DNA of 38,499 nt from Pseudofulvimonas gallinarii (GTDB lineage Bacteria > Pseudomonadota > Gammaproteobacteria > Xanthomonadales > UBA2363). The notes under the pieces were generated by a model. That model had not been told where the DNA came from. It made no database searches and was given only the letters and a program-made list of their open reading frames with translations. A program made the translations under genes and the position numbers. Below, in pieces: positions 12,526 through 38,096 of this stretch (positions within the stretch are counted from its first letter, which is position 1; the number at the start of each line of letters is the position of its first letter). The DNA lies in NCBI RefSeq assembly GCF_004343305.1, contig NZ_SMAF01000028.1, forward strand, positions 1 to 38,499, read 5' to 3'.

Positions 12526-12712
12526 GTCACACCCGCGCAGGCGGGTGTCCAGTGCTTCTTCGCCACAGCCGCTGGATGCCCGCCTTCGCGGGCATGACGA
12601 GGTTGGGGTGTACGGCCTTCGCGGGCATGACGAGGTTGGGGTGTGCGGCCTTCGCGGGAGTGACGAGGTCTGGTGTGCGGCCTGCGTGGGCGTGACGAAG
12701 TCTGGATGTGCG
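12526..12712. repeat. REP-like unit followed by 33-nt minisatellite (4 units)
   Basis: A palindromic unit (12526-12597: CACACCCGCGCAGGCGGGTG, a linker CTTCTTCGCCACAGCCG, then GCCCGCCTTCGCGGGC) runs directly into 33-base units starting at 12582, 12615, 12648 (32 bases) and 12680. The unit is GCCTTCGCGGGCATGACGAG plus GTTGGGGTGTACG or variants, related to the block at 12338. The bases 12437-12525 between the two blocks show no repeat and no gene. Confidence 0.8.
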
Positions 12713-12835
12713 GTCAACAACTGCGCCATACAGGGACCGGGCCGCCATCGTTTTGGTCCGATGCAGCGCGCTGGGTCCTTCACTCCTGCCTGTGCGACGA
12801 CGTGCGCATGCCGCGCGTTGCGTGTGCGCGCGGGC

Positions 12836-13393
12836 TCAGCCAGCGCCGTTCAGCGCGTCGTAAAGCCAGGTTCTGGCGGCCTGCCAGTGTCGTTTCACCG
12901 TCGCCGGCGACTGCCCCACGACAGTGGCGGTTTCCTCGATGCTCAGGCCCCCGAAGTAGCGCAATTCGACAATGCGTGCCTTGGCCGGGTCGATCGCTTC
13001 CAGCTTTTCCAGGGCGTCATTCAGGCCGAGCAGCTCGACATCGTCGGATTCGCCGACCTGTTCAAGGTGAGTCAGCGACATGCGCTCGCCGCCGTCGCGT
13101 TTCGCCGCCGCGCGACGACGGGCGTGATCGATCAGGATCTCGCGCATCAGCCGTGCGCTGACCGCGAACAGGTGGCCGCGGTCGTTGGCTTCGATGGCAT
13201 CGAGTCCGGAAAGCCGCAGCCAGGCCTCGTTGACCAGGGCCGTGGGCTGCAAGGTGTGATCGCCTCGCTCGCGACGGAAGAGCTGTTCCGCCAGACGATG
13301 CAGTTCCGGGTACAGCGCGCCGATCAGTCGGTCGCGGGCACCGGCGTCGCCCTGGCGCCAGTCGGCAAGAAGCTGGGTCACGGCAGGTTCCAT
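12836..13393 (-). CDS. ECF-type RNA polymerase sigma factor (TIGR02999-like)
   Basis: A 185-residue sigma factor. Region 2 lies at about 20-95 (LYPELHRLAEQLFRRERGDH, NEAWLRL, RLMREILIDHARRR) and region 4 at about 125-180 (YFGGLSIEETATVVGQSPAT followed by VKRHWQAARTWLY). The LQPTALVNEAWLRL and HARRRAAAKR signatures are those of the sigma group often encoded beside Ser/Thr kinases in Lysobacterales. No anti-sigma factor gene adjoins it; the divergent neighbour at 13574 is such a kinase. An ATG at 13393 is the natural start; a TACACT lies only 7 bases upstream, which would give a leaderless transcript. Confidence 0.92.
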   Translation of the reverse strand: MEPAVTQLLADWRQGDAGARDRLIGALYPELHRLAEQLFRRERGDHTLQPTALVNEAWLRLSGLDAIEANDRGHLFAVSARLMREILIDHARRRAAAKRDGGERMSLTHLEQVGESDDVELLGLNDALEKLEAIDPAKARIVELRYFGGLSIEETATVVGQSPATVKRHWQAARTWLYDALNGAG

Positions 13394-13400
13394 GTGCCCG

Positions 13401-13540
13401 AGTGTAGCGAAATACCGCGCCGCACCGCCCGAATGCCAACGCGAGCCGAACACGCCCGGATTTTCCGGGTTTCCCTCGCTTCCATTCGCGCGCGCATTCG
13501 CCGTCGAGGCAGCCGGCGCCGGCCGGGACGCTACACTGGC
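13401..13540. promoter_or_regulatory. Paired CGCTACACT boxes between sigma factor and kinase
   Basis: The same 9-mer CGCTACACT occurs once toward each divergent gene: on the minus strand at 13409-13401 before the sigma gene, and on the plus strand at 13529-13537 before the kinase. TACACT could be the -10 part. No matching -35 was seen by eye. The duplication suggests both genes answer to the same polymerase form, possibly the encoded sigma factor. Confidence 0.4.
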
Positions 13541-13573
13541 AGCGGCGAACGCGTCGGAGACTGGGGAGCCGCG

Positions 13574-15988
13574 ATGGACCTGTCGGTGGAAATGACCGCG
13601 ATGCGGCTGCTGGAACAGGCACTGGCGCTGCCGCTGTCGCAGCGGGCCGCCTGGCTGGCAACACTGCAGGCGGAAGACCGCGTCCTCGCAAGGCTTCGCG
13701 AACTGCTGGCGGCCGCCACGGAAGCCGACACGTTCCTGGAAACGCCGCTCGCGCCGTCGCTGGCTGCTGCGGCCCCCGGGGACCGTGGCCATGGTCTGCC
13801 GAAAGCCGGTGATCGCCTCGGTGCCTGGCGTATCGTCCGCGAGCTGGATCGTGGCGGCATGGGCGTGGTCTATCTCGGTCGCCGTGACGACGGCACCTAC
13901 GAGCAGCTGGCGGCGATCAAGCTGATCCGCACTGGCGAGCTCATCGGCCACGCGCAGCATGCGCAGCTGGTCAGCCGCTTCCAGAACGAACGGCGGCTGC
14001 TCGCCCGCCTCGATCATCGCAACATTGCGCGCATTCTCGACGGCGGCGAGACCGCCGCAGGCGAACCCTTCCTGGCGATGGAATTCGTCGATGGCCCATC
14101 GCTGCTGGTGCATTGCGACGAGGCGCGGCTCGATGTGCCGGCGCGCATTGCCGTGTTCCGCAAGGTCTGCGCCGGCGTTCAGGCGGCGCACCGGCACCTG
14201 ATCGTCCATCGCGACCTGAAACCGCAGAACATCCTTGTCGGCGCCGATGGCGAACCGCGCCTGCTCGACTTCGGCATCGCCCGCATCCTCGAACCGGATG
14301 CGCCGGATGGCAGCGCGACGCAGACGCAGTTCGTCGCCATGACGCCGGCGTATGCCAGCCCCGAACAGCTGCGCCAGGAAGCACTGACGACGGCTTCGGA
14401 CATCTACTCGCTGGGCGTGATCCTGTTCGAACTGCTGACCGGCGTGCGGCCTTACCGCATGGACAACAAAAGCCCGGCGCAGGCCGAACGCCTGATCAGC
14501 ACCGGCGCGCGCTCGCAACTGCGGCGCGCCCTGCTCGATGCGCCATTGCCCGATGGCGAACGGCGCGCGCGGCTGGCACGCATCAGCACCGACCTGGAAC
14601 GCATCGTCGCCAAGGCCATGCACCCGGATCCGGTCCGTCGCTACGAATCGGCGCAGGCACTCGCCGATGACCTGCAACGACAGTTGCGCGGGCAGCCGGT
14701 CCTCGCCCATCCGGATTCTTTGCGTTACCGCATCGGCAAGTTCGTCCGTCGCCACCGCATTGGCACCGCCGCCGCCGCCCTGGCATTGCTGGCGATCCTC
14801 GCCGCGACTGCCGCGGCGTTCTGGCAGGCGCGACAGGCGAATCGCGCCGCCGCCGACATGGCGCTGGTCAACCGCTTCCTCACCGATGTCATCCAGGTGT
14901 CGAATCCCTTTGCCGCCGGCGAGGAGATGACGCTGGGCGATGCCCTTGACGAAGCCGCCGGCAAGATCGACGAACGCTTCGCCGACCGTCCCGACATTGC
15001 CGTCGACATCCGCAACACGCTGGCCGAAAGCCTGCAGGCGCGCTTCCGCACCGAAGCGGCCGGGCAGCAGTACGAACGCGCTGCCCAGGACGGTGAACGC
15101 CTGTTCGGTCGCCACGACCATCGCGTGCTGATGGCGCTGAATGGCCTGGCAGCAGTGCGCAAGGACCAGAGCCGGATGTCCGAGGCCGTCGCGATTTACG
15201 AGGACATCCTGGGCCGCATCGAGGAGAGCGGACACACGCAGCTGCCCACCTATGCCGGCGCCCTCAACGACCTGGGCGTTGCGCACCTGATCATGGAGAA
15301 CCACGCCAAGGCGGCCGGTTACCTGCAACGCTCGCTGGATGCGATGGAACACGTCAACCGTCCCGAGGACGAGGCGCTGTTCGAGGAGAATCGTGCCCTC
15401 ACGACGATCAGCCTCGCCCAGGCGCACCGTTCGATGGGCAATCTCGACCGCGCCGCAGAACTGTACGACCAGGGTCAGCGCGAGCTGGAACGGCTGTATC
15501 CGGACGGGGCGCCGCAGTTGGGCGTTGTGCTGAACAGCCAGGCGAGGCTGGCGCAGGATCGTGGCAACCTGCCGGCGGCGATCGATTTCCAGAAGCGCTC
15601 GATCGCCATGCTGGAGAAAACCCTGCGCGGCGACCACGCCCACAAGCTGGTGCCGATGGTGAACCTTGCGCGCTTGGCGCTGACACAGGGCGATCTGGCG
15701 CTGGCGGAAGAGTGGGCCGGGAAGGCGATGGCGATGGCGGATCGCCTGTACGCGAGTGGTGCGCCGCATCCGCTGCATGTCAACGCGCTGTCGGCGCTGG
15801 CCGCCGTGCGCATGGCGCAGGAACGTCGTGAAGAAGCGGCCACGATGCTCGGCTTCGCCCGCGACATGTTGCCGCGCATCGACTCGGTGCCCCGCTCGAC
15901 GTCCGACCGGATCGCCGGGCAGATCGGTGAACTCTGCGCCGATCGCAGTCGGCCCCCGCTGTCCGTCTGCCGCCAGCGCGACGAATAG
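13574..15988 (+). CDS. Membrane-anchored Ser/Thr protein kinase with helical repeat C-terminus
   Basis: An 804-residue Hanks-type kinase. The domain at about 84-370 has the glycine loop LDRGGMGVVYLG, Lys116 (AAIKL), catalytic HRDLKPQN (Asp214), DFG at 232-234 and ASPEQ at 261-265, so it should be active. A single transmembrane segment lies near 396-418, followed by roughly 380 residues of helical tandem repeats that look like TPRs of the kinase-associated type (ALNDLGVAHL, ALTTISLAQAHRSMGNLDRA). The 80 residues before the kinase are helical. The start at 13574 has GGGGAG six bases upstream. It diverges from the ECF sigma gene; such pairs are common in this order, and phosphorylation of the sigma factor is a plausible but unproven link. 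Confidence 0.93.
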   Translation: MDLSVEMTAMRLLEQALALPLSQRAAWLATLQAEDRVLARLRELLAAATEADTFLETPLAPSLAAAAPGDRGHGLPKAGDRLGAWRIVRELDRGGMGVVYLGRRDDGTYEQLAAIKLIRTGELIGHAQHAQLVSRFQNERRLLARLDHRNIARILDGGETAAGEPFLAMEFVDGPSLLVHCDEARLDVPARIAVFRKVCAGVQAAHRHLIVHRDLKPQNILVGADGEPRLLDFGIARILEPDAPDGSATQTQFVAMTPAYASPEQLRQEALTTASDIYSLGVILFELLTGVRPYRMDNKSPAQAERLISTGARSQLRRALLDAPLPDGERRARLARISTDLERIVAKAMHPDPVRRYESAQALADDLQRQLRGQPVLAHPDSLRYRIGKFVRRHRIGTAAAALALLAILAATAAAFWQARQANRAAADMALVNRFLTDVIQVSNPFAAGEEMTLGDALDEAAGKIDERFADRPDIAVDIRNTLAESLQARFRTEAAGQQYERAAQDGERLFGRHDHRVLMALNGLAAVRKDQSRMSEAVAIYEDILGRIEESGHTQLPTYAGALNDLGVAHLIMENHAKAAGYLQRSLDAMEHVNRPEDEALFEENRALTTISLAQAHRSMGNLDRAAELYDQGQRELERLYPDGAPQLGVVLNSQARLAQDRGNLPAAIDFQKRSIAMLEKTLRGDHAHKLVPMVNLARLALTQGDLALAEEWAGKAMAMADRLYASGAPHPLHVNALSALAAVRMAQERREEAATMLGFARDMLPRIDSVPRSTSDRIAGQIGELCADRSRPPLSVCRQRDE

Positions 15989-16001
15989 AGGCGCGAATCG
16001 G

Positions 16002-16034
16002 CGCCCTGCTCCGGTCACGGCGGGGCAGGGCGCG
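16002..16034. terminator. Possible bidirectional hairpin terminator
   Basis: GCGCCCTGC (16002-16010) pairs perfectly with GCAGGGCGC (16026-16034) across a 15-base loop, inside the 69-base gap between the convergent kinase and rhodanese genes. No T tract follows on either side, so efficiency as an intrinsic terminator is doubtful. Confidence 0.45.
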
Positions 16035-16057
16035 CGCATCGATCGCGCCTTCTGTCG

Positions 16058-18502: not shown

Positions 18503-20323
18503 TCAGCAGTTCTCGCCCGTCTGCAGTCGCCACAGCGTCGCATACAGCCCGTTGCGCGCGACCAGTTGCCCGTGCGTGCCGGATTCGACGATGCGGCCCT
18601 CGTTGAGCACGTGGATCGCATCGGCCTGGCGCACGGTGGACAGGCGATGCGCCACCACGATCAGCGTGCGACCCTGGGCCGCCCGCTGCAGCGAGCGCTG
18701 GATGGCGGCCTCGGTTTCGTTGTCGACGGCGGAGGTGGCCTCGTCCAGCACCAGGATGCGCGGATCGCGATACAGCGCGCGGGCCAGCGCAATGCGCTGG
18801 CGCTGGCCGCCCGAGAGCAGCAGGCCGCGTTCACCGACCGGGCTGTCGTAGCCTGACGGCGTGGCGGCGATGAAGTCGTGCGCTTCCGCCGCGCGTGCGG
18901 CGGCCTCGATGCGCTGCCGGTCCGGCGCCGGGTCGCCGTAGGCGATGTTCTCGGCCAGCGTGCCATCGGTCAGGAATGGATCCTGGGCAACGAAACCGAT
19001 CTGGCCACGCAGCAGGCTGCGGGGCAGTTCGCGGACATCGATGCCGTCCAGGGTGACGGAGCCGGCATCCGGGTCCTCGAAGCGCAGCAGCATCTTCAGC
19101 AGCGTGCTCTTGCCGCTGCCCGTCGCGCCGACCAGGCCGATGGTCCGGCCGGCCGGAACCTCCAGGTCGATGCCGTGCAGCACAGGCCGACCGTCATAGG
19201 CGAAGCGCACGCCGCGGAAACCGACGGCACCGGTGGATGGCCCGGGCAGCGTGCGCGTGCCGGCATCACGGGCCGGCGGCAGGCGCATGAGGTCGGTCAC
19301 GCGCGTGACCGACGTCATCGCACGCTGGTAGAGATCGGTCATCTCGGCCAGGCGTGTCAACGGCCAGAGCAGCCGCTGCGTCAGGTAGACCAGTGCCGAG
19401 TAGCTGCCGACTCCGAGATCACCGCGCAACGTGAGCAGGCCACCATAGAGCAGCGTGGCGACGAAGCCGGCGAGAATGGCAATGCGGATCACCGGCGTGA
19501 TCGCAGCGGCCACGCGGATGGCTTCGGCATTGCGCTGGCGATAGGCATCGCTGGCCTGGGCGATGTGCGCCGTTTCGAAGTCCTCGGCGGTGTAGGCCTG
19601 AATGGTGCCCATGCCGAGCAGGTTGTTGCCGAGCCGGCGCGACACGTCCGAAGCCGCCTCACGCGCGGCCGCGTAGCGCGGCGCCAGCCGGTGCATGAAC
19701 CAGAACGCGCCGAACAGGATCAGCGGTACCGGCAGGATGGCGAGCACGGCGAGGCTGGGTGTGAGCACGAAGAACACCGCGCCGACCAGGAGGCTGGAGC
19801 AGGCGACCTGGATCAGGTCGTTGGCGCCGGTGTTGAGGAAGCGTTCGATCTGGTGCACATCCTCGTTGAGCACCGCCATCAGCCGACCACTGCGTTCGCG
19901 TTCGATGCGGCCGGGATCCAGCGTCTGCACGTGCCGGTAGGCATCCAGGCGCAGGCGGTGCTGGAGGTCCTGCGCCAGGTTGCGCCACTTCAGCGCCAGC
20001 AGGTATTCGAACAGCGATTCCAGAGCCCACACGATGATGGTCAGGCCGGTCAGCAGCAGGAGCTGGTGCACGGGATCGGGCAGGCCCATGCGCGCGATGA
20101 AGGATTCGCGCTGGTGCACGACCACGTCGACGGCGACGCCGATGAGGATTTCGGGCAGGACGTCGAAAAGCTTGTTCAGCACCGAGTACAGCGTTGCCAG
20201 CCAGACGTCGCGCTGGCGGTCGCGCGCATAGGCGGCAAGACGACGCAGTGGATGGGCGTCGGGTTGGAGCACCTGCGAGGGTTGCGTCGGGCGTATTGCC
20301 GGGTCCTGGCTGGAGGCGGTCAT
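18503..20323 (-). CDS. ABC exporter, fused permease and ATPase
   Basis: A 606-residue type IV ABC exporter half-transporter, likely a homodimer in the inner membrane. The membrane domain (about 38-335) contains hydrophobic stretches near 42-68, 86-110, 170-210 and 280-298. The ATPase domain has Walker A GATGSGKST (399-407), Q-loop Gln447, signature LSGGQ (503-507), Walker B ILVLDE (523-528) and the switch His559. All catalytic residues are present. Substrate cannot be deduced: the layout fits MsbA-like lipid or multidrug exporters, but no substrate gene is adjacent. It follows the fusion gene on the same strand with a 145-base gap. Confidence 0.94.
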   Translation of the reverse strand: MTASSQDPAIRPTQPSQVLQPDAHPLRRLAAYARDRQRDVWLATLYSVLNKLFDVLPEILIGVAVDVVVHQRESFIARMGLPDPVHQLLLLTGLTIIVWALESLFEYLLALKWRNLAQDLQHRLRLDAYRHVQTLDPGRIERERSGRLMAVLNEDVHQIERFLNTGANDLIQVACSSLLVGAVFFVLTPSLAVLAILPVPLILFGAFWFMHRLAPRYAAAREAASDVSRRLGNNLLGMGTIQAYTAEDFETAHIAQASDAYRQRNAEAIRVAAAITPVIRIAILAGFVATLLYGGLLTLRGDLGVGSYSALVYLTQRLLWPLTRLAEMTDLYQRAMTSVTRVTDLMRLPPARDAGTRTLPGPSTGAVGFRGVRFAYDGRPVLHGIDLEVPAGRTIGLVGATGSGKSTLLKMLLRFEDPDAGSVTLDGIDVRELPRSLLRGQIGFVAQDPFLTDGTLAENIAYGDPAPDRQRIEAAARAAEAHDFIAATPSGYDSPVGERGLLLSGGQRQRIALARALYRDPRILVLDEATSAVDNETEAAIQRSLQRAAQGRTLIVVAHRLSTVRQADAIHVLNEGRIVESGTHGQLVARNGLYATLWRLQTGENC

Positions 20324-20468: not shown

Positions 20469-23120
20469 TCATTGAATGCCAGGGTGCGCCTCCGCGCCGC
20501 GTCCGCACAGTGATGTCGATGCCTTCCTGCCGAGGTGCGTCGACGGCGCGACCCCGAAGTGCTCGCGATAGGCGCGACTGAAAGCGGCCAGGTTGCCGTA
20601 GCCCACGGCGTAGGCGATTTCCGACACCGTGCCGGCACCCTGCTCCAGCAGGCCGCGGGCCCGGATCAGGCGATGCTGGCGCAGCCGCTCCAGCGGCGTC
20701 ATGCCGAACAGTTCCTGGCAGTGCCGGCGCAGCGAACGTTCGGACGCATGGGTGGCATGTGCCAGTTCGGCCACGCTCGTCTCCGGCTGGTGCGCCAGCC
20801 CCTGCAAGGCCTCGTCGATGCGTTGCGCAAGCGGACGGCGGCTGGACGACGGCGCCGGTGATGACGGTGCACATTGCAGCAGGCGCTGCAGCCTGAGCCG
20901 CGTTGCCAGCATGGCGGCAACGTGTGCGCGCAGCACCTGGCTGTCGAACGGCTTGGTCAGGTAGTGGTCGGCGCCCGTTGCGAGGCCGGTGACCTGGTCG
21001 TCCACGCCGGTACGCGCGGTCAACAGCAGCACGGGTATGCCGGCAAGGTCGCCGTTGGCGCGCAGGGCGGCGACGAGGCTGAGTCCATCGCGTTCGGGCA
21101 TGACGACGTCGGAGACGATGGCGTCCGGCAGCAGCGAGGGAATGCGCGCCAGCGCCTCTTCGCCGTTGCAGGCGGTGGCGACGCGGTAGTCACCGGCGAG
21201 CAGCTCGGCCAGATACAGGCGCAGGTCGTCCTGGTCCTCGATCACGAGCAGCAGCGGGCGCTGGCTCCCGTCGTCGGGATCGGCGGGTGTGGAAGGCGGT
21301 CGCTCGTCGGCGCTGGCGGTCGTGGCCGGGGCGTCTTCCCGCGCATCCGGTTCAAAGCCCACCAAAGGCGCCGTCGATCCGCGGGCGTGTGCAGGCAGCC
21401 AGACGGTAAAGCAGGCGCCGCCCAGATCGCTGTCGCCGGCTTCGATGCCGCCGTCGTGCAGGCGGACCAGTTCGTTGCACAGCGCCAGGCCGATACCGGT
21501 GCCCTCCTGCGCGCGCAAGGTGGCGTTGCCGGTGAGCTGGAAGCGGTCGAAGATGCGCTCGCGCCACTGCGCGTCGATGCCGGGACCACTGTCGTCGACA
21601 CGGAAGCCGATGCGGCGGTCGTCGTGAGCGGTGCGCACGCGCACCCGCCCGCCACGCGGGGTGAACTTCAGCGCGTTGCCGACCAGGTTGGCGACCACGC
21701 GCGCCAGCTGCTCGGCATCGCCGTGGCAGGGCAGCGATGTGGCCCGGGCGTCCAGCGCCAGGATGAAAGTGCGCGCTGGCAGGGACAGCAGGCCGTTCCG
21801 TTTCAGGCGGAAAACCAGTGAGCTGCCGTCCGGCTGGACCACGAACTGCTCCGAGTTGCTCGGATGGATCACGCTGGCAATACCGAAGCGATGCGGCGTC
21901 GGACCGCCGCCCAGCTGGGTGAGCCCGCCGGTGACAATCATGTCGGTGCGTGAAGTGCCGGTGAGCCCGTACACGGCACCGTCCGCAGGCGTGACGACCC
22001 ATGGGGTCCCATCGGCCTGGAGGAGGGCGAGCGGGCCCGACGCGGTGCTGCCCTGTATGGACGTGAAGTGTCCGCCGACGAACATTTCGCCACCGCCCAG
22101 CAGCAGGATCGAATAGACATCACCGTCGGTATTCGCCTGGAACGTGGGGTCGAGCGTGCCGTCGGGATGCAGGCGCGCGAGGTTGTTCCGTGCCACGTTG
22201 TTGACATACTGGAAATTGCCGCCGATGACGATCCGGCCGTCGGGCTGGATGGCGATGACGTTGACGCGGCCGGTTCCTTCGGTGGCGCTGGCGAGGAAGC
22301 TGGGATCGCGGCTGCCATCCGGGTTCAGGCGCACGATCGAATAGTGGCCAGGCGACCCGGGCGCCGGGAACATGCCGCCCACCAGCACGCGGCCGTCGGG
22401 ATAGCTGGCAAGGGTGCGCACCTGGTTGCCGTCATCGATGTCGTAGGCCGCGAGCAGGCCGCCGGTGGTGTTGAAACGACCGAGCAGATGGACGGTGCTG
22501 CCGTTCGCGGCGTGGAAATCCCCGCCGATGAGCAGTTGCCGGGTATTGCCCTGGCTGTGGAAGGATGACTCCAGCATCAGCCGGGCGAATCCGTCAAGGC
22601 GTGGCAGCAACCCGCCTTCAATGGTGGGCGCACCGCCACCGTAGTGGATGGACATGGCGTGGCGGTGGTCGTCGACGACGGTGCCGTCAAGGCGCACCTC
22701 GTCGAAGGCGCCGCTGATGTAATAGCCGCTGCCGTTGACGTGGTTGGCAATGGCGAAGACCCGGTCGTTGAGCGTGAGCCTGGCGAAGTTCGGGTCGAAG
22801 TCCCCTTGCGGCGCTACCCGCATGATGTTCTGCGCGCCGGCCACCGAGAAGCTGCCACCGATGAGGATCCCGAACGAACGGTCGAGGACGGCCGAGCTGG
22901 TAAACGGCGTGCCGGTGACGCTCGACATTTCGTCGGGCAGCTCGACGGATCGGACATGGATGCCGGACGCCGGTGCGTCGATGGGGTGCAGCGGCTTCCG
23001 GGCAGGCAGTACCACGGTTTCGGCGTTGACGGTGCCGGCGAGGCCGAGGGCAAAGGCGAGCGGCAGGGCCAGCCGCCGGCCACGCACGGAGGCCGGTGTG
23101 ATGGATGACGGTTGCGTCAT
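20469..23120 (-). CDS. Fusion of exported delta-60 repeat protein with HATPase-receiver-AraC regulator
   Basis: One uninterrupted frame of 883 residues. It starts with a signal peptide (about 1-33, ending AGTVNA; GGGAG before the ATG). Residues 80-440 carry delta-60 repeats (IAIQPDGRIVIGGNFQYVNN; RLHPDGTLDPTF). Near residue 450 the character changes abruptly: 465-580 is a histidine-kinase ATPase domain (N box ANLVGNALKF, DDSGPGID, GTGIGLAL), 622-740 a receiver (phospho-acceptor Asp671 in VSDVVMP, Lys723), and 764-866 an AraC-type DNA-binding domain. The C-terminal part is the usual tail of hybrid two-component regulators, but the transmembrane segment and the HisKA dimerisation/phosphorylation domain are absent. 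A chain led to the periplasm cannot bind DNA, so this is a deletion fusion, an assembly join, or a truly new architecture. Confidence 0.75.
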   Translation of the reverse strand: MTQPSSITPASVRGRRLALPLAFALGLAGTVNAETVVLPARKPLHPIDAPASGIHVRSVELPDEMSSVTGTPFTSSAVLDRSFGILIGGSFSVAGAQNIMRVAPQGDFDPNFARLTLNDRVFAIANHVNGSGYYISGAFDEVRLDGTVVDDHRHAMSIHYGGGAPTIEGGLLPRLDGFARLMLESSFHSQGNTRQLLIGGDFHAANGSTVHLLGRFNTTGGLLAAYDIDDGNQVRTLASYPDGRVLVGGMFPAPGSPGHYSIVRLNPDGSRDPSFLASATEGTGRVNVIAIQPDGRIVIGGNFQYVNNVARNNLARLHPDGTLDPTFQANTDGDVYSILLLGGGEMFVGGHFTSIQGSTASGPLALLQADGTPWVVTPADGAVYGLTGTSRTDMIVTGGLTQLGGGPTPHRFGIASVIHPSNSEQFVVQPDGSSLVFRLKRNGLLSLPARTFILALDARATSLPCHGDAEQLARVVANLVGNALKFTPRGGRVRVRTAHDDRRIGFRVDDSGPGIDAQWRERIFDRFQLTGNATLRAQEGTGIGLALCNELVRLHDGGIEAGDSDLGGACFTVWLPAHARGSTAPLVGFEPDAREDAPATTASADERPPSTPADPDDGSQRPLLLVIEDQDDLRLYLAELLAGDYRVATACNGEEALARIPSLLPDAIVSDVVMPERDGLSLVAALRANGDLAGIPVLLLTARTGVDDQVTGLATGADHYLTKPFDSQVLRAHVAAMLATRLRLQRLLQCAPSSPAPSSSRRPLAQRIDEALQGLAHQPETSVAELAHATHASERSLRRHCQELFGMTPLERLRQHRLIRARGLLEQGAGTVSEIAYAVGYGNLAAFSRAYREHFGVAPSTHLGRKASTSLCGRGAEAHPGIQ

Positions 23121-23342: not shown

Positions 23343-25532
23343 CTATTCGAAGTCGTCGGCGAACAGCGGGTCGCCGTTGGCGGCGAACCAGCCCAGCAGG
23401 TCGCGCAGGGCGATCGGCATGTTTGCCGCGACAGGCTGGCCAGCCTGGTTGGTCGGCGTCGAACCGTGGCAGCCGTCGCAGGCGCGGATCTCCCCGGGCT
23501 GCAGGGTCAGCCAGTAACGCTCGCGCACGACTGCCTCGCCCTGCGGACCGGTCAGCTGCCAGCTCAGTGCGCGTCGCGCCGGGACGAACATCGCCACCGA
23601 CCCGTCACTGGCGATCACGGCCGAGCCGTCCGGTGCATCGGGGTTGGGCGGCAGGAAGCGCAAGGCGGCGGGATCGTGCATCACCTGCGCCAGCACGCGG
23701 CGACCCGGCCGAGGGTTGTTGATGCCGCCGATGCCGCGGATCTGGTCGGCCTGGAACATCTGCATGTCGGTGACGTCGTAGATGCGCCCGCCATTGCCCA
23801 GCGTCTGAACGCCGCCCGGGACGCGCAGGTTGAAGGGCTGCTGGCGGTCCAGGCGGTCGCGCGTGGTCGCGTTGCGCACGACGACCAGGCCGAGGTTCCA
23901 GGCGCGCATGAATTGGCGCAGCGATTCCAGATTCGCGCCGGCGGCGGCCGCGGCCTGTTGTTCCGGTGGCTCCGGCGCCGGCTCCAGCTGCAGCGGCGGG
24001 CGCTCGCGGGCGACGACTTCGACCGGCGACAGCTCCCAGAACTCGCCGCTGTACGTCACCATCACGTCCGGGTCCCAGAAGCTGACGCTGCGCTCGATGC
24101 CGTCGGTCAGCGCAGCGCCGGGCGCGAACTGGCCGCTGCCGGCCGGGGCTAGGCGACGGATGCGGAAGCGGTACGACGGTACCGGCGCCGGCCGCGTGCC
24201 GAGGTTCGAGGCATAACTCGCGCTCGTGGTGTGCGCGGCGAGGATCGTGCCGTCGCTGAGCACGACGGGATTGCGGTAGCGGCCGCTGAAGGCCGCCGGG
24301 GCGTTGCCGTTCTCGTAGAAACCGTGCGCCGAGCGGTCATGCAGGTACTGGATCACCAGGTCGCGCGCCTGCATCTGCGGCGTGGCTACGAAGGCGACCA
24401 GGTGGCCGGAACCATGCGTGCCGAATTCCGGCGCGTCGACGCCCAGGTAGCGGCCGGGCGTCGTCGGATCCTCGGCCAGGTGCGTGAGGTTGAGCACCGC
24501 GTTCGGATTGGGGCGTGGCGTGCCGCCGGCGATGAATTCCACCAGGCTGGGATCGTCGTTGAAGCTGCGGTCGAAGTAGGCGTGCAGCTCGTGGCGCCCG
24601 ATGTGGTTGAGCGTTTCCTCGCCGGTGCCGTCGGCGCGGATCTGCCACGGCGAGAAATGGTTGAAGCGCAGGCCGTTGACATTGCCCGAGTTGAGGCGCG
24701 GTTCCGGGAACACCTCTTCGACCGTGTCCAGGCGCGGTGCATCCGCCGCTTCCGACGCCCAGTTGAAGTTGCCGTAGTAATTGCCGGTCCCTTCCGCCTG
24801 CTGGTCGCGCTGCAGATGGTCCCAGCGCGTGAACACGATGCGGCCGTGGCGGTCGACGAGCGGATCGAACGAGCCGGATGGCGAATGCTGCAGCAGGATC
24901 AGTTCGCCGCTGGCCGGATCCAGGCGCCACAGACCGGTCGGCGTGGCGGTGGATTCGTATTCGTCATGTTGAGGATAAAGGTGGCGCTGGCCGTTGCGCG
25001 GGCGGTCGGAGACGAACACGATGCGGTCGTCGGGCAGGTAGGCCGGTTGCACGTTGTTGTACTGCGCGGGCTGGTTCGGCACCACGCTGATGCTCGCGGT
25101 CTGCCCCTGCGCGAGGCCGGTCACTTCGTACAGCTGGAAGTAGTGCGAAGGATTCTGGTACTGCTGCGTCGGGGCGCCGATGGCCATGGCGAACACCGCC
25201 TTCTGTCCCGTCCAGTGCACGGCCGGATCACGGACGACGATCGACTGCGCGCCCTGGAAGCCGGTCGTGCCGAAGCCGGCTTCGGCGGTCAGGTTGCGCA
25301 GCGTGCCATCGGGGTAGCAGACCATCAGGTCGCCACCGCGGCCGCTGCCCGCGATTCCGGCGCGATGGTTGGCGAACACCGCGCCTATGGTGGCGAAGTC
25401 GTTGGGCACCGGATACTGCAGGACGAACATCACCGGATTCGGCAGGCCGGCGCCGTTGCATTGCGTCTGTGCCTGGCCTGCGCCGGCGCTGCCCAGCAGC
25501 AATAGCGCGATGAAAATGCTGCGTGCCCGCAT
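23343..25532 (-). CDS. Exported HzsA-like protein with C-terminal haem c motif
   Basis: A 729-residue protein with a signal peptide (MRARSIFIALLLLGSAGAGQ). Most of the chain is beta-propeller-like, with TolB/WD-type repeats (YLPDDRIVFVSDRPRNGQRH; DRHGRIVFTRWDHLQRD). Near the end a single haem-binding CDGCHG (Cys685, Cys688, His689) follows a beta-rich segment. This matches proteins annotated as related to the alpha subunit of hydrazine synthase, but none of the other anammox parts is present, so hydrazine chemistry should not be assumed. It ends with WFAANGDPLFADDFE, a terminal motif shared in part with two other exported proteins here. AAGGGGA precedes the ATG. The 289-base divergent gap to the subtilase gene shows no other gene. 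Confidence 0.85.
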   Translation of the reverse strand: MRARSIFIALLLLGSAGAGQAQTQCNGAGLPNPVMFVLQYPVPNDFATIGAVFANHRAGIAGSGRGGDLMVCYPDGTLRNLTAEAGFGTTGFQGAQSIVVRDPAVHWTGQKAVFAMAIGAPTQQYQNPSHYFQLYEVTGLAQGQTASISVVPNQPAQYNNVQPAYLPDDRIVFVSDRPRNGQRHLYPQHDEYESTATPTGLWRLDPASGELILLQHSPSGSFDPLVDRHGRIVFTRWDHLQRDQQAEGTGNYYGNFNWASEAADAPRLDTVEEVFPEPRLNSGNVNGLRFNHFSPWQIRADGTGEETLNHIGRHELHAYFDRSFNDDPSLVEFIAGGTPRPNPNAVLNLTHLAEDPTTPGRYLGVDAPEFGTHGSGHLVAFVATPQMQARDLVIQYLHDRSAHGFYENGNAPAAFSGRYRNPVVLSDGTILAAHTTSASYASNLGTRPAPVPSYRFRIRRLAPAGSGQFAPGAALTDGIERSVSFWDPDVMVTYSGEFWELSPVEVVARERPPLQLEPAPEPPEQQAAAAAGANLESLRQFMRAWNLGLVVVRNATTRDRLDRQQPFNLRVPGGVQTLGNGGRIYDVTDMQMFQADQIRGIGGINNPRPGRRVLAQVMHDPAALRFLPPNPDAPDGSAVIASDGSVAMFVPARRALSWQLTGPQGEAVVRERYWLTLQPGEIRACDGCHGSTPTNQAGQPVAANMPIALRDLLGWFAANGDPLFADDFE

Positions 25533-25821: not shown

Positions 25822-28800
25822 ATGTTGCATCTGAAGAAAACGGCGCTGGCGCTCGCGCTGGCCGCCTCGGTCGCCGCGGCGGCGCCGCCGGTGTCCGGTG
25901 GCGCGGGCCTGCGCGCGGTTGCGCCTTCGCCCTTGGCGCTGGAACAGCTGGACGCGCTTCGCAGCGCGCCTGGAATGATCCTGCTGCGCGCCGGCGCTTT
26001 CGACCCGCTGGTCGAGCAGCTCGACTTCGCCTCGCATCGCCTGCCGACCGTGCCGCGCAGCCGCTACGGCATCGTGCAGTTCGAACCCGGCCAGGCCGCC
26101 GCAGTCCGTGACGCCCTGAAGGCCGAGGGCGCGGAGATCGTCGGTTTCCTGCCCAACAACGCCTACCAGGTGCGCTGGACAGCCGGGGTGCAGGAGCGCC
26201 TTGCCCGGCGTGGTGGCGTGCGCTGGGCGGGTGCCTACCAGCCCGGCTACAAGCTGGCCCCGGCACTGCTGGACGGCAGCATGCTGGCATCGCAGGCGCC
26301 GTCCGGTTCGATCGAACTGGAAATCCACGGTTTCCGTGGCGAGCGTCCGGACGCCATCGCCGGTGAACTGGCCAGCGCGATTCCCGGCATCGAGCTGGGT
26401 CCGCAGGTGGACGCGCTCGGCCTGGCATCCGTTCGCGTCGTGGTGCCGGCAGCGCAGATGGAAACGCTGCTCCGCCACGCGGCTGTGCTCGACGGCGTGG
26501 CGTGGATCGAACCCTACCTGCAGCCGGAGCCGGCCAATCGTGATTCGGTCGGCCCGATCCAGAACAATACGCCGTCGTGCGCGGGTGCCGGTCCGAACTG
26601 CGCGACGCTCGACCTGGCCTATGCGCCGCTGTGGCAGCGCGGCCTGCTCGGTACCGGCCAGATCGTCGCCGTGTCCGATTCCGGCCTCGACCGCAACGAG
26701 GAATGGTTCACCGCCCTCGACCTCGGCGCCGGCGTCAACCAGATCCTCACCGATGCCGATGATCCGGCACCCGTGCCGCCGGCCATCGGCGCCACCTATC
26801 CGGACCGCAAGGTCTTCGGCTACTGGGTACAGCCCGGCGCCACCGCCTACGATGCCGGCAACGTCCGCTGCTCGCCGACTTCGTCGCCGATCAACTTCCA
26901 CGGCACGCATGTCGTCGGCAGCATCCTCGGTGACGCCTCCCCGTTCTCGTCACCGACCGTTGCCAACTACACCAATGGCGACGGCATGGCACCGAATGCA
27001 CAGGTGCTGATGCAGGACATCGGCAACGACACCAGCGGTTGCCTGAGCATCACCGACTTCGGTGCGACGCTGGTCCAGGCCTACGCCGGCGGCGCCGGCA
27101 TCCACAGCGGCAGCTGGGGCAACACCAGCGCCGGCGCCTATGGCGGCAACGACCAGCGCGGCGACGCCGCGACCTGGGTGACGGAAAACCTGCTGGTCAA
27201 TATCGCGGCCGGCAACAGCGGTTCGGGCGCGAACACCATCGGGTCGCCGGGCAACGGCAAGAACATCAACACCATCGGTGGAACCGCGCACGGCTTCGCG
27301 ACGACGATGTACACCAGCTCCAGCCGTGGCCCGACCGACGACGGCCGTCGCAAGCCGGATATCCTTGCGCCGGCGGTGTCGATCGTGTCCGCCGCCGGAG
27401 ACACCAACAACGGGGCGACCGTCGAGCCGGCGGTCACCTCCAGCAAGACCGGCACGTCGATGGCGACGCCGACCGCTTCCGGTGGCGCCGCCCTGCTGCG
27501 CCAGTACTTCATGGACGGCTTCTATCCGCTGGGCCGGCGCGTGCCGGAAGAAGCGCTCGAACCGACCGGTGCGCTGATGAAGGCGGCGCTGATCAACGGC
27601 GCGGCGCCGTTCACCGCCAGCTGGCCGGACAACAATGCCGGCTGGGGTCGCATGTGGCTGGCCAACAGCGTCTACTTCGAAGGCGACGCACGCCGCCACC
27701 GCCACTGGATGCGCAGCAATGCAGCCGGCCTGGAAACCGGTGACGTCGAGGAATTCACCCTTGACGTCCATGCCGGCCAGGAGCTGCGCGCGACGCTGGT
27801 GTGGTACGACGTCGAGGGCGCGCTCGGCTCCGGCGTGACGCTGGTCAACGACCTCGACCTCGAACTGGTGGCGCCGGGTGCGACGGTGTACCTGGGCAAT
27901 GTCTATACGGCCGGCCAGTCGACTCCCGGTGGCAGCCGCGATGACCGCAACACCGTCGAGCAGGTCCGCCTGACCGCGCCCGCCGCCGGCACGTACACCC
28001 TGCGCGTGAAGGCGACGGCCGTGCCCGGCAATGGTCGTCCGGGCAGCCATCGCCAGGGCTATGCCCTTGTCGTCGGCGCCTCTTTCGGCGTGCTCGACCG
28101 GCTGTTCGCGCACAACTTCGATGCCGATGAACGCATCGCTGCGCCCTCCGGCCTGACCGTGGCCAGCAACGATACGGCCGGCATCACCATCAGCGCCGCG
28201 CCGGTGGGTGGTGCCCAGGGCTACCAGCTGTATCGCGCGACCGGCACCTGCGCGGCCGTCGGCAACGACCAGTTCCGCTACGTCGGACAGGGGGCGACGC
28301 CGGTGATCGTCGATGCGCGCACGCAGGGCGGATACACCTATGCCTACCGCATGCGCGGCATCTCCGAAGGCAGCGAAGGACCGATGTCCAGCGAATGCGT
28401 GGAGGTAGTGTCGGCCGATGAGTGCTCGCTGGTCCCGGACTTCGACGACAGCACTGCGCAGCGGCAGATGCAGAACGCCACCTGCTCGGTGGGCCTGAGC
28501 TGGGATGCCGGCACCAGCAACTGCCCGGCGGCCAGCCTGTCGTATCGCGTCTGGCGCGATACCTCGCCCCTGTTCACGTCGCCGCAGCTGATCGATACCG
28601 TCGCGACCACCAGCTACACCGACACCGCTGTGTCGTCGGGCCAGCCGTACTACTACCGCATCGACGCCATCGACGCGGAAGGCAACGTGAAGTCAGGTAC
28701 GCGCATCCTCAACGCCACGCCGGTCGGCGTCGGCACCGGTGCAACCGGCGTCTATGTCGACGACATCGACGACAACACCTACATGGACATGCAGACGCCG

Positions 28801-29301
28801 TGGTCGATCAGCAACCTGCTGCCGGGCCAGGGCAACTTCAGCTACCGCAGCGCCAATGCGGCGACCTATCCGTCGTTGACCTGCGCCGACCTGATGACGC
28901 TGCCGGTGACGCTGGCGGCCGGTTCGCCGCAGCTGCAGTACATCGCGCGCTGGCAGATCGAGGCCGACTGGGACGGCGTGGTGGTCGAGCTGTCCAGTGA
29001 CGGTGGTTCCAGCTGGACGCCGATCACCCCGGTGGGCGGCTACCCGGGCAGTTTCAGCCAGACCGGCAATCCGCCGATCAACACCTGTGGCTATCCGGCC
29101 AGCCAGGGCGCGTTCAACGGCACATCGGCGGGTTTCGCCAGCGGCACCTACCAGTCGGTCAGCCATGACCTGAGCGCCTGGGCCGGCCAGCAGGTGCTGA
29201 TCCGCTGGCGCCTGAGCACCGACCCGGGTTCCGAGGAAGGCGGCTTCTTCCTCGACAACGTGCGCATCAACGCACAGGTCCCGGCGGCGTGTACGCCCTG
29301 A
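25822..29301 (+). CDS. Secreted subtilisin-like serine peptidase with multiple beta domains
   Basis: A 1159-residue S8 peptidase. After a signal peptide (MLHLKKTALALALAASVAAA) comes a prodomain-like region to about 230, then the catalytic domain with Asp286 (VSDSGLD), His360 (HGTHVVG) and Ser546 (GTSMATP). A jelly-roll domain follows (about 640-755, LRATLVWYDVEGALGSG), then an internal LFAHNFD, two fibronectin-III-like domains (about 770-970) and a C-terminal MAM/jelly-roll-like module with VYVDDIDDNTYMD and ending FLDNVRINAQVPAACTP. It should act outside the cell on proteins. GGAG lies 11 bases before the ATG, and a strong terminator follows. Confidence 0.94.
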   Translation: MLHLKKTALALALAASVAAAAPPVSGGAGLRAVAPSPLALEQLDALRSAPGMILLRAGAFDPLVEQLDFASHRLPTVPRSRYGIVQFEPGQAAAVRDALKAEGAEIVGFLPNNAYQVRWTAGVQERLARRGGVRWAGAYQPGYKLAPALLDGSMLASQAPSGSIELEIHGFRGERPDAIAGELASAIPGIELGPQVDALGLASVRVVVPAAQMETLLRHAAVLDGVAWIEPYLQPEPANRDSVGPIQNNTPSCAGAGPNCATLDLAYAPLWQRGLLGTGQIVAVSDSGLDRNEEWFTALDLGAGVNQILTDADDPAPVPPAIGATYPDRKVFGYWVQPGATAYDAGNVRCSPTSSPINFHGTHVVGSILGDASPFSSPTVANYTNGDGMAPNAQVLMQDIGNDTSGCLSITDFGATLVQAYAGGAGIHSGSWGNTSAGAYGGNDQRGDAATWVTENLLVNIAAGNSGSGANTIGSPGNGKNINTIGGTAHGFATTMYTSSSRGPTDDGRRKPDILAPAVSIVSAAGDTNNGATVEPAVTSSKTGTSMATPTASGGAALLRQYFMDGFYPLGRRVPEEALEPTGALMKAALINGAAPFTASWPDNNAGWGRMWLANSVYFEGDARRHRHWMRSNAAGLETGDVEEFTLDVHAGQELRATLVWYDVEGALGSGVTLVNDLDLELVAPGATVYLGNVYTAGQSTPGGSRDDRNTVEQVRLTAPAAGTYTLRVKATAVPGNGRPGSHRQGYALVVGASFGVLDRLFAHNFDADERIAAPSGLTVASNDTAGITISAAPVGGAQGYQLYRATGTCAAVGNDQFRYVGQGATPVIVDARTQGGYTYAYRMRGISEGSEGPMSSECVEVVSADECSLVPDFDDSTAQRQMQNATCSVGLSWDAGTSNCPAASLSYRVWRDTSPLFTSPQLIDTVATTSYTDTAVSSGQPYYYRIDAIDAEGNVKSGTRILNATPVGVGTGATGVYVDDIDDNTYMDMQTPWSISNLLPGQGNFSYRSANAATYPSLTCADLMTLPVTLAAGSPQLQYIARWQIEADWDGVVVELSSDGGSSWTPITPVGGYPGSFSQTGNPPINTCGYPASQGAFNGTSAGFASGTYQSVSHDLSAWAGQQVLIRWRLSTDPGSEEGGFFLDNVRINAQVPAACTP

Positions 29302-35651: not shown

Positions 35652-36602
35652 CTACGCCTGGTGCTTGCCCTTGCGGCGCGCGCGCGGGTGGGCGGCGTCG
35701 TAGACACGCGCCAGGTGCTGGAAGTCCAGGTGCGTGTAGATCTGCGTGGTGGCGATGTCGGCATGGCCGAGCAGTTCCTGCACGCTGCGCAGGTCCTGCG
35801 AGGATTCCAGCACATGGCTGGCGCAGGAATGGCGCAGCAGGTGCGGATGCAGGCGTTGGGCGATGCCCTGGCGCTGGCCGAGCAGCCGGATGCGGATCTG
35901 CACGGCGCGGGCGCCGAGATGCTTGCCGTCGCGACCGGGAAAAACCCAGTCATCGCCTGGCGAGAAGCCGCGCCAGTCGTCCAGCGCTTCGCGGGCGCTG
36001 CGGCCGACCGGCACGATGCGCGTCTTGCCGCCCTTGCCGACGACACGCAGTTCCGTGCGATCCGGTGAGAAGTCGGTCCAGCGCACCGCCACCAGCTCGC
36101 TGACGCGCAGGCCGGACGAGTAGGCCAGTTCGAACAGGGCGCGGTCGCGCGCGGCAAGGCGCGGATCATCCTCGTGGCCGGCGATGCCGTCGAGGAAGGC
36201 GCCGGTGGCATCCGCGTCGAGTACCGAGGGCAGCTTGCGGCCGACCTTGGGTGCGCGCAGTCCGGCGGCCGGGTTGCCATCGAGACGGCCATCGCGCAGC
36301 AGCCAGCGGCAGAAGCTGCGGACGGCAGCGAGCCAGCGCGCCAGCGACTTGCCGCTCAACCCGCGGCGGTGTTCGCGCGCGACGAGGCCGCGCAGGTGTT
36401 CGGGATCGAGTGCGCGCCAGTCGGCCAGCGCATTCTCGTTGAGGAAGGCAAGCAGACGCTGCAGGTCGCGCCGGTAGGCCGCGAGTGTGTTGTCGCTCAG
36501 GCGGCGCACGACCGCCAGATGCTGCAGGAACGCCTCGACGTCGGCGGCGGGATCGAACCCGCCATCGCGGTGCAGGGCGACGGTGGCGTCAGTTGCCGCC
36601 AT
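35652..36602 (-). CDS. xerC: Tyrosine recombinase XerC
   Basis: A 316-residue site-specific recombinase that with XerD resolves chromosome dimers at dif during division. The N-terminal SAM-like core-binding domain spans about 18-105 and the catalytic domain about 125-300. All six active-site residues are visible: Arg166 (SGLRVSEL), Lys190 (GKGGK), His254 and Arg257 (HPHLLRHS), His280 (LLGHAD) and nucleophile Tyr289 (TQIYTH). The length and gene neighbourhood (dapF, DUF484) identify it as the housekeeping XerC, not a mobile integrase. It overlaps the DUF484 gene by 14 bases. Confidence 0.96.
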   Translation of the reverse strand: MAATDATVALHRDGGFDPAADVEAFLQHLAVVRRLSDNTLAAYRRDLQRLLAFLNENALADWRALDPEHLRGLVAREHRRGLSGKSLARWLAAVRSFCRWLLRDGRLDGNPAAGLRAPKVGRKLPSVLDADATGAFLDGIAGHEDDPRLAARDRALFELAYSSGLRVSELVAVRWTDFSPDRTELRVVGKGGKTRIVPVGRSAREALDDWRGFSPGDDWVFPGRDGKHLGARAVQIRIRLLGQRQGIAQRLHPHLLRHSCASHVLESSQDLRSVQELLGHADIATTQIYTHLDFQHLARVYDAAHPRARRKGKHQA

Positions 36603-37278
36603 AGCGGCGAAGTGCGGCGGCCACGGTTTCGCCGATCAGTTCCAGGAAAAACGTGCCCTGGCCCGGATGGAACCGGTTGGGATCGGTGCTGCCGATGACC
36701 AGCAGGCCCTGTTCGCGCAGCGGCAGCAGTGCACAACTGGCGACCTTGGCGGCATCGATGTCGTTGAACAGCACCTTCAGCTGGTCACTGGACAACCTGC
36801 CGCACAGCGGCTGGTCGCGCGTGAGGATGTCGGCCAGCGGCGCCAGCCCGGGATCGCCGGCGGCGATGGCGAGCAGCCAGTCGGCGGCGGGCAGTTTCGG
36901 GTCCGGGCGATGCAGCAGCAGGCGGACGTGTTCGGTGCCGAAATCCTCGCGCAGGGCGGCGACCAGGCGGCGGATGCTCTCATCGGGCGTGAGTGCGCGC
37001 ATCAAAGCAAGGTTGAGCGCGTGGACGCGACGCATCAGCAACTCGTTCTCGCTGGCGATGTCGACGAGCTCCTTGATGCGTCGGGTGAGCTCGCGGTTCT
37101 TGTCGCGCAGCACGTCGAGCTGGTAGCCGGCCAGCGATGCCGCGCCGCCCTGGCCATGCTCCTTCGGCACGGTCAGGCTGAGCGCCAGGTCGGGATGCTT
37201 GCTGAGGAAATCGGGATTGCGGCGCAGGAAGCTCGCCACTTCCGTGGCGCCCGGGCCATAGCTGGGACGGTCGCTCAT
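36589..37278 (-). CDS. DUF484 family protein (GAF-like)
   Basis: A 229-residue cytosolic protein of the DUF484 family, regularly encoded between dapF and xerC in gammaproteobacteria. The N-terminus carries the typical VASFLRRNPDFLSKHPDLAL, followed by a heptad-rich helix (about 55-85, DKNRELTRRIKELVDIASEN) and a GAF-like domain to the end (LLPLREQGLLVIGSTDPNRF, then HPGQGTFFLELIGE). Function is unknown. Its start overlaps the dapF stop by four bases (ATGA) and its end overlaps xerC, so the three are tightly coupled. Confidence 0.94.
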   Translation of the reverse strand: MSDRPSYGPGATEVASFLRRNPDFLSKHPDLALSLTVPKEHGQGGAASLAGYQLDVLRDKNRELTRRIKELVDIASENELLMRRVHALNLALMRALTPDESIRRLVAALREDFGTEHVRLLLHRPDPKLPAADWLLAIAAGDPGLAPLADILTRDQPLCGRLSSDQLKVLFNDIDAAKVASCALLPLREQGLLVIGSTDPNRFHPGQGTFFLELIGETVAAALRRYGGN

Positions 37279-38096
37279 GAATTCCAGGTTCCTTCGAAGA
37301 CGAAAGTGGCCGGGCCGGACAGGCGGACCGGTTCCTCGCGGCCGCCGGCCCAGGTGGCGCCGAGGCGGCCTCCAGGCAGGTCGATGGCGGTGTGCTCGTC
37401 GACGCGGCCCTGGTGATGCAGCCAGGCATGCGCGGCGCAGGCGCCGGAACCGCAGGCCAGCGTTTCACCGACGCCGCGCTCGATGACGCGCAGACGCAGG
37501 TGCGCGCGCGTCACCCGCTGCACGAAGCCGACGTTGCAGCCGCCGGGAAACGCCGGATGCGACTGCAGCGTCGCGGCCAGTTCGACCGGAGCCGCCGTGA
37601 TCTCGTCCACTTCGATGACGACATGGGGGTTGCCCATGGACACGGCACCGAAGCGCACATCGCAATCGCCGACGCGCAACCGGTGCCCGCTTTCGTCGCT
37701 GGAGACCCCGGTCATCGGGATGGACGGCGCGTCGAAGCGCGGTGCGGACAGGCTGACCTCGAAACCCTCGTCGAGGACGCGGGCGAACACCGGTCCGGCC
37801 GGACTGTCGAGGACGCCCTCGCGTTGCAGGGCGCCATCGCGATGCAACCACGCCGCGAGGCAGCGCGCGCCATTGCCGCATTGGCCGGCGTCGCTGCCGT
37901 CCTGGTTGACGATGCGGTACCCGGCGACGCTGCCCGGGCGCTGCGCCGGCGTGAGGATCATGAGCTGGTCGCAGCCGATGCCGGTATGCCGGTCGGCCAT
38001 GTGCGCCAGCTCATGCCGCGGCGGCAAGGGCGACCCGTCACGCCGGTCCAGGACGACGAAATCGTTGCCGGCTCCGTGCATCTTGGTGAAGCGCAC
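37275..38096 (-). CDS. dapF: Diaminopimelate epimerase
   Basis: A 273-residue cytosolic enzyme that interconverts LL- and meso-diaminopimelate, needed for lysine and peptidoglycan. It is PLP-independent and uses two cysteines as acid and base: Cys73 in GQCGNGARC and Cys215 in ACGSGAC. Other signatures are MHGAGNDFVVLD at the N-terminus, SMGNPHVV in the middle and ERGVGETLACG. Length is standard. It lies 10 bases behind lptM and overlaps the DUF484 gene by four bases. Confidence 0.97.
   Translation of the reverse strand: MRFTKMHGAGNDFVVLDRRDGSPLPPRHELAHMADRHTGIGCDQLMILTPAQRPGSVAGYRIVNQDGSDAGQCGNGARCLAAWLHRDGALQREGVLDSPAGPVFARVLDEGFEVSLSAPRFDAPSIPMTGVSSDESGHRLRVGDCDVRFGAVSMGNPHVVIEVDEITAAPVELAATLQSHPAFPGGCNVGFVQRVTRAHLRLRVIERGVGETLACGSGACAAHAWLHHQGRVDEHTAIDLPGGRLGATWAGGREEPVRLSGPATFVFEGTWNS

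Follow-up and report, generated by a model that had tools for sequence, protein, structure and literature searches.

The window analysed here, the whole 38,499-nt stretch of DNA from Pseudofulvimonas gallinarii, carries on its minus strand (an earlier note on this DNA had given no strand) an open reading frame of 883 codons at positions 20469–23120, which starts with ATG and has no internal stop. A GGAG motif lies seven bases 5′ of the ATG. In the translation, Pfam domains occurred in the order DUF5122 (E-value 6.9e−33), HATPase_c (residues 467–577, 1.6e−25), Response_reg (625–734, 2.1e−21), and HTH_18 (786–861, 7.1e−23), in agreement with the earlier description of a single 883-codon frame that combines delta-60 repeats, a kinase ATPase domain, a receiver with Asp671, and an AraC-type helix-turn-helix (HTH). 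The absence of HisKA and of a membrane span, reported in the same note, was also confirmed: the Pfam scan found no HisKA in the 883-aa chain, the motif scan found no H-box, and a hydropathy scan, the only method applied to membrane spans, gave no candidate after the start region, the maximal 19-residue value (1.53 at residue 682) falling within a receiver strand. GC3 was 0.843 on the propeller side of the join and 0.844 on the kinase side, codon-position GC was coding-like on both sides, and the alternative frames of the kinase half contain 6 and 2 stops. Scans for promoters and terminators detected nothing. The model of the whole chain was weak overall (mean pLDDT 67, pTM 0.44). On the same strand, the gene is flanked upstream by a gene for an HZS-alpha-like protein (23343–25532) and downstream by an ABC transporter gene (18503–20323). 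The HZS-alpha-like protein looks exported and carries a CxxCH motif as well as the HZS_alpha middle domain; it has counterparts of 64–65% identity in both congeners, without local synteny.

The propeller half and its relatives

Residues 1–33 (23022–23120, minus strand) resemble a signal peptide by eye, with RGRR, a hydrophobic stretch at 17–32, and ANA before E; hydropathy there reaches 1.42 at residues 19–21. They are followed by a delta-60 (DUF5122) beta-propeller at residues ~76–418 (21867–22895, minus strand), identified from Pfam, motifs, and a structural model. The DUF5122 score was 113.1 bits against a gathering score of 27, and three stretches passed. Seven blade motifs were located by eye at residues 88, 137, 199, 248, 300, 349, and 398, a count that omits two further matches of the pattern at 169 and 220. 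The model of residues 35–453 was a propeller (mean pLDDT 73.4, pTM 0.77), and propellers were among its best PDB matches in Foldseek, including CylK, the BT4663 sensor propeller, and a designed seven-bladed propeller, with moderate TM-scores (0.28–0.52 of the query).

When the N-terminal half was searched against the order at 1e−30, with the best four candidates per genome scored, only 2 of the 398 sampled genomes matched, namely the own genome and one other (G351), whose delta-60 frame (L076) terminates without a kinase. Ten closed-end delta-60 frames were considered, and none of the nine followed to their end finishes in a kinase. The congeners carry weaker delta-60 paralogues (best E-value 1.9e−7 with a 138-aa query). 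The own genome itself has several long delta-60 repeat proteins, on contigs C22 (L056), C6 (L057), and C8 (L058); the open frame of the C22 protein is 1861 aa long and runs into Flg_new_2 repeats. The fusion shares the repeats, scoring above the gathering threshold, and the signal-peptide-like start with the secreted DUF5122 proteins (own L057 and L056, and L076 of G351); however, those proteins continue into a beta-rich tail and then a stop, or into further extracellular repeats, whereas the fusion has a kinase tail instead.

The kinase-receiver-HTH half and the join

The second half comprises an HATPase_c domain including its first strand (residues 453–577, 21390–21764; Pfam, model, and solved kinases), a receiver with an intact Asp671 (625–734, 20919–21248; Pfam, motifs, and column conservation), and an AraC-type HTH (786–861, 20538–20765; Pfam and column conservation), all on the minus strand. 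The catalytic motifs are kept, namely the N-box from N478, G1 from D510, and G2 from G540, as are Asp671 and K723 of the receiver. Compared with 29 relatives, left after matches shorter than 370 residues and duplicates were dropped, the kinase half keeps all 50 columns conserved at ≥95%, 69 of the 80 at ≥85%, and 99 of the 130 at ≥70%; in the ≥85% tier, 23 of the 29 relatives keep a larger share. Judged by these residues, the catalytic core is intact, whereas the remainder of the half is rather divergent for the family. A tree built for the kinase half placed it in no close clade; the shortest paths led to genomes G021 and G072, and its end branch of 1.13 was more than twice the median of 0.5, but shorter than five flagged long branches. 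The 50 of 50 kept columns would be expected of a young fusion and equally of a functional protein. Under a simple neutral model, the chance of meeting no stop in the 430 codons of the kinase half is 0.58, 0.25, and 0.06 at 2%, 5%, and 10% divergence, respectively; therefore, the open frame is compatible with a fairly young, unselected fusion and, with a probability of 0.25 at 5% neutral divergence, says little by itself.

The closest relatives of this half are AraC-type hybrid regulators (HTCS), such as L060 of G021, L059 on contig C19 of the own genome, and Bacteroides BT4663 and BT1754. The available text of PMC3243724 and PMC3404733 describes the Bacteroides HTCS as single chains with a propeller sensor with Y_Y_Y, a membrane span, a phospho-acceptor domain, a kinase, a receiver, and an AraC HTH. 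The order of HATPase_c, receiver, and HTH_18 is shared with the fusion, at identities over ~400 residues of 44% (L060) and 34% (L059). In contrast, the place of the Reg_prop/Y_Y_Y sensor is taken by a DUF5122 propeller behind a signal-peptide-like start. Among six HTCS features, the fusion has three (HATPase_c with N, G1, and G2 boxes; the receiver Asp671; and the AraC-family HTH) and lacks three: the Reg_prop propeller with Y_Y_Y sensor, as defined in the available text of PMC3243724, only DUF5122 being found there; the transmembrane helix between sensor and kinase, by hydropathy scan only; and the HisKA phospho-acceptor and dimerisation domain. The fusion therefore falls outside the HTCS and, judged from sequence, is unable to function as they do by itself.

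The relatives of the kinase half consistently retain what the fusion lacks. An H-box lay 98–106 residues before the aligned ATPase start in 30 of 30 relatives and at 96–114 residues in all 13 of a second set with shorter frames, which had no delta-60 motif (the pattern finds three in the query); the two sets share one contig (G187:C42), giving an H-box in 42 of 42 distinct relatives, most of them viewed within ~500 residues before the ATPase domain. All eight full-length relatives combined HisKA, HATPase, REC, and HTH, and none had DUF5122. These counts bear on the idea that an older, delta-60-sensing hybrid regulator lost its middle, including the membrane span and HisKA, by an internal in-frame deletion. 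Such an ancestor would be in keeping with the propellers at the sensor position of classical hybrid regulators, as far as the available text of PMC3243724 goes, and with the match of the predicted propeller model to the BT4663 sensor, but with DUF5122 in 0 of 8 full-length relatives and the delta-60 motif in 0 of 13 shorter frames, 5 of which end at a contig end, we regard it as highly improbable. The two halves have separate families of relatives.

The two families meet within a narrow interval. In BLAST extensions, the similarity of the N-terminal part was gone by residues 438–448; on the other side, curated kinase models align from residue 454, solved kinases align from 448, and the first strand of the ATPase fold lies at 453–457 in the predicted model. 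Because the one fades where the other begins, the probable join was placed at residues ~443–454 (21759–21794, minus strand), close to the 21755–21785 proposed earlier. The preceding linker (residues 419–452, 21765–21866, minus strand) had low confidence in both models, with pLDDT mostly below 50. Among the 15 BLAST extensions listed, four (L107, L125, L121, and L131) reached residues 438–448 in the register of a delta-60 tail, and the remainder aligned one more repeat or drifted. In a global PSSM test against shuffles, the linker scored as a delta-60 tail with z 2.2–2.3, where a positive control, the tail of the own C6 protein, gave 7.5 in full and 2.7 when shortened. Residues D431 to D468 align without gaps in the register of the kinases (PSSM z 2.8), and residues 431–452 alone gave 1.55. 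Profiles of the delta-60 tail and of the kinase linker, built after removal of short rows from the former set and of duplicates from the latter (30 kept), produced no significant local score on residues 405–453; shuffles reached the real score in 1549 of 2000 cases for the tail on 412–462 and in 884 of 2000 for the linker on 405–468. By this comparison, the likeness of the linker to a delta-60 beta tail is weak. The join coincides with a clean domain boundary, which a selected fusion might also show.

Distribution and origin of the fusion

A search of the order with the whole chain at 1e−45, limited to the top two candidates of each genome, gave matches in 69 of the 398 sampled genomes, the own genome included. 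Apart from the query itself, none of the listed matches begins before query residue 434, and most lie in frames of 1300–1500 aa; a match across the join occurred in only 1 of the 398 genomes, the own. In the genus and family searches, of three genomes each, neither half was found in either congener at the limits used (0 of 2). A scan of genome contigs yielded 15 loci, all matching only parts from residue 418 onward, and no record covered 80% of the query among the best 5000 plasmid records and 196 phage records. When 43 frames of the window were compared with 20 kb around the HZS-like gene in each congener at a limit of 1e−8, only the HZS-like neighbour matched and the pre-fusion site was not found. 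Among the literature matches listed for hybrid AraC regulators that are fused or lack HisKA, no title or abstract describes this architecture. The earlier note had named as a refutation relatives that carry the two halves as distant, separate genes while the fusion occurs in no genome; in the genomes sampled, the outcome points to a lineage-peculiar fusion or to an artefact.

The latter would be an assembly chimera, in which delta-60 and hybrid regulator reads were misjoined near 21759–21794 and the cell has no such gene. The fragmentation of the assembly into 57 contigs and the restriction of the join to this one genome of the order sample point in that direction. However, the join is not a repeat: a 241-bp stretch across it gave 42 matches in the own genome, the sole full one being itself; beyond that, the closest agreement at the join was with an unrelated gene (25 of 26 bases, including a gap). 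Microhomology of the join with C9 and C34 was considered and rejected; the genes there encode an exported-looking protein and a rhodanese-like protein, and the matches pointed to chance GC-rich words. The complementary halves of the fusion were likewise not found elsewhere in the own assembly by searches for Y_Y_Y, the regulator front half, and the delta-60 tail. Of the four Y_Y_Y places, three belong to GGDEF proteins and one to a hybrid regulator on C19 that is complete, with the caveat that two of the nearest regulators (L060 and L061) have no Y_Y_Y match. The front half of the closest regulator matched seven places in six genes, each adjoining its own ATPase domain. The tail profile, applied to the 11 best candidates per genome, found one gene, which was among those used to build it, and missed the own C6 tail. 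Within these limits, the missing halves argue for a real loss of DNA, although this cannot replace reads. An in-frame join, moreover, has a one-in-three chance without selection, as had been correctly stated before, and GC3 is equal on both sides. We consider a chimera unlikely; the DNA is presumably real in the organism.

The reading that fits best, and is probable, is an in-frame fusion specific to this lineage, caused by a deletion or rearrangement and yielding a presumably exported product unable to signal, because the halves have separate relatives and neither the fusion nor the missing parts were found elsewhere. The earlier observation was thus correct, and a one-off gene fusion is its best reading. 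In the event proposed, a deletion or rearrangement, a gene for a secreted delta-60 propeller would have supplied the 5′ part, with signal peptide and propeller, and an AraC-type hybrid regulator gene the 3′ part, entered at the first ATPase strand; the regulator would thereby have lost its sensor, membrane span, and HisKA. The genomes searched yielded no parent gene, no sister strain, and no locus in its pre-fusion state; therefore, we infer the deletion rather than demonstrate it. Of the three alternatives put forward in the earlier note, the deletion fusion stands as the best fit, the assembly chimera gained no positive support, and a new class has no support from recurrence (0 others among 398 genomes).

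Translation start and possible function

The periplasm contains no ATP and no chromosomal DNA. If translated from the ATG and exported, as the signal-peptide-like start suggests, the product would carry its HATPase, receiver, and HTH into the periplasm, and the chain, as read from its sequence, would have neither a phospho-acceptor nor a dimer domain. An inert tail is expected on these grounds, and the kinase part is most likely just that; at most the propeller would be active, and the chain would be a by-product of rearrangement in the genome and not a working signalling protein.

The intact catalytic core and an internal start site are nevertheless concrete hooks for a new functional class. 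Shortly before the join, GGAG is followed after a 6-nt spacer by GTG (V427; 21840–21852, minus strand), detected in a start-codon scan, and a V427 start for a cytosolic regulator is a speculative option. Sites of the GGAG type occur at 4 of the 39 in-frame start codons, one being the ATG itself, or at 3 of the 38 internal ones. On this basis, one gene could supply an exported propeller and, from V427, a cytosolic HATPase-receiver-AraC protein, with the receiver phosphorylated by another kinase and the HTH regulating transcription. This functional fusion would account for the intact catalytic and receiver residues and for the kinase-like register from D431 to D468; nevertheless, no other join-spanning match occurred in 398 genomes, self-phosphorylation is precluded by the absence of HisKA, residues 431–452 are poor as a kinase linker, and the GGAG site may be due to chance, since by our own estimate from the two start codons near the join, such a site is expected there in ~15% of cases. 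We therefore judge it quite improbable. That a chance fusion created such a split sensor-regulator, with HisKA lost and the cytosolic part driven in trans, is very unlikely.

Returning to the one-off gene fusion, if it is real, it offers a snapshot of a fusion at a domain boundary with both halves intact, in which one can ask whether the chimera is inert, harmful, or co-opted. Domain-based annotation could label it a signalling kinase despite the missing HisKA and membrane span. The fusion by itself is no evidence for a new signalling class.

Elsewhere in the window, positions 12545–16039 contain a Ser/Thr kinase with TPR repeats on the plus strand that overlaps a long minus-strand frame, the C-terminal part of which scores as an ECF sigma factor. 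A subtilase with PPC and InhA-like MAM domains is encoded at 25822–29301 on the plus strand. Finally, 35652–38096 on the minus strand holds in a row a phage-integrase-family (XerC-like) gene and genes for a DUF484 protein and diaminopimelate epimerase.
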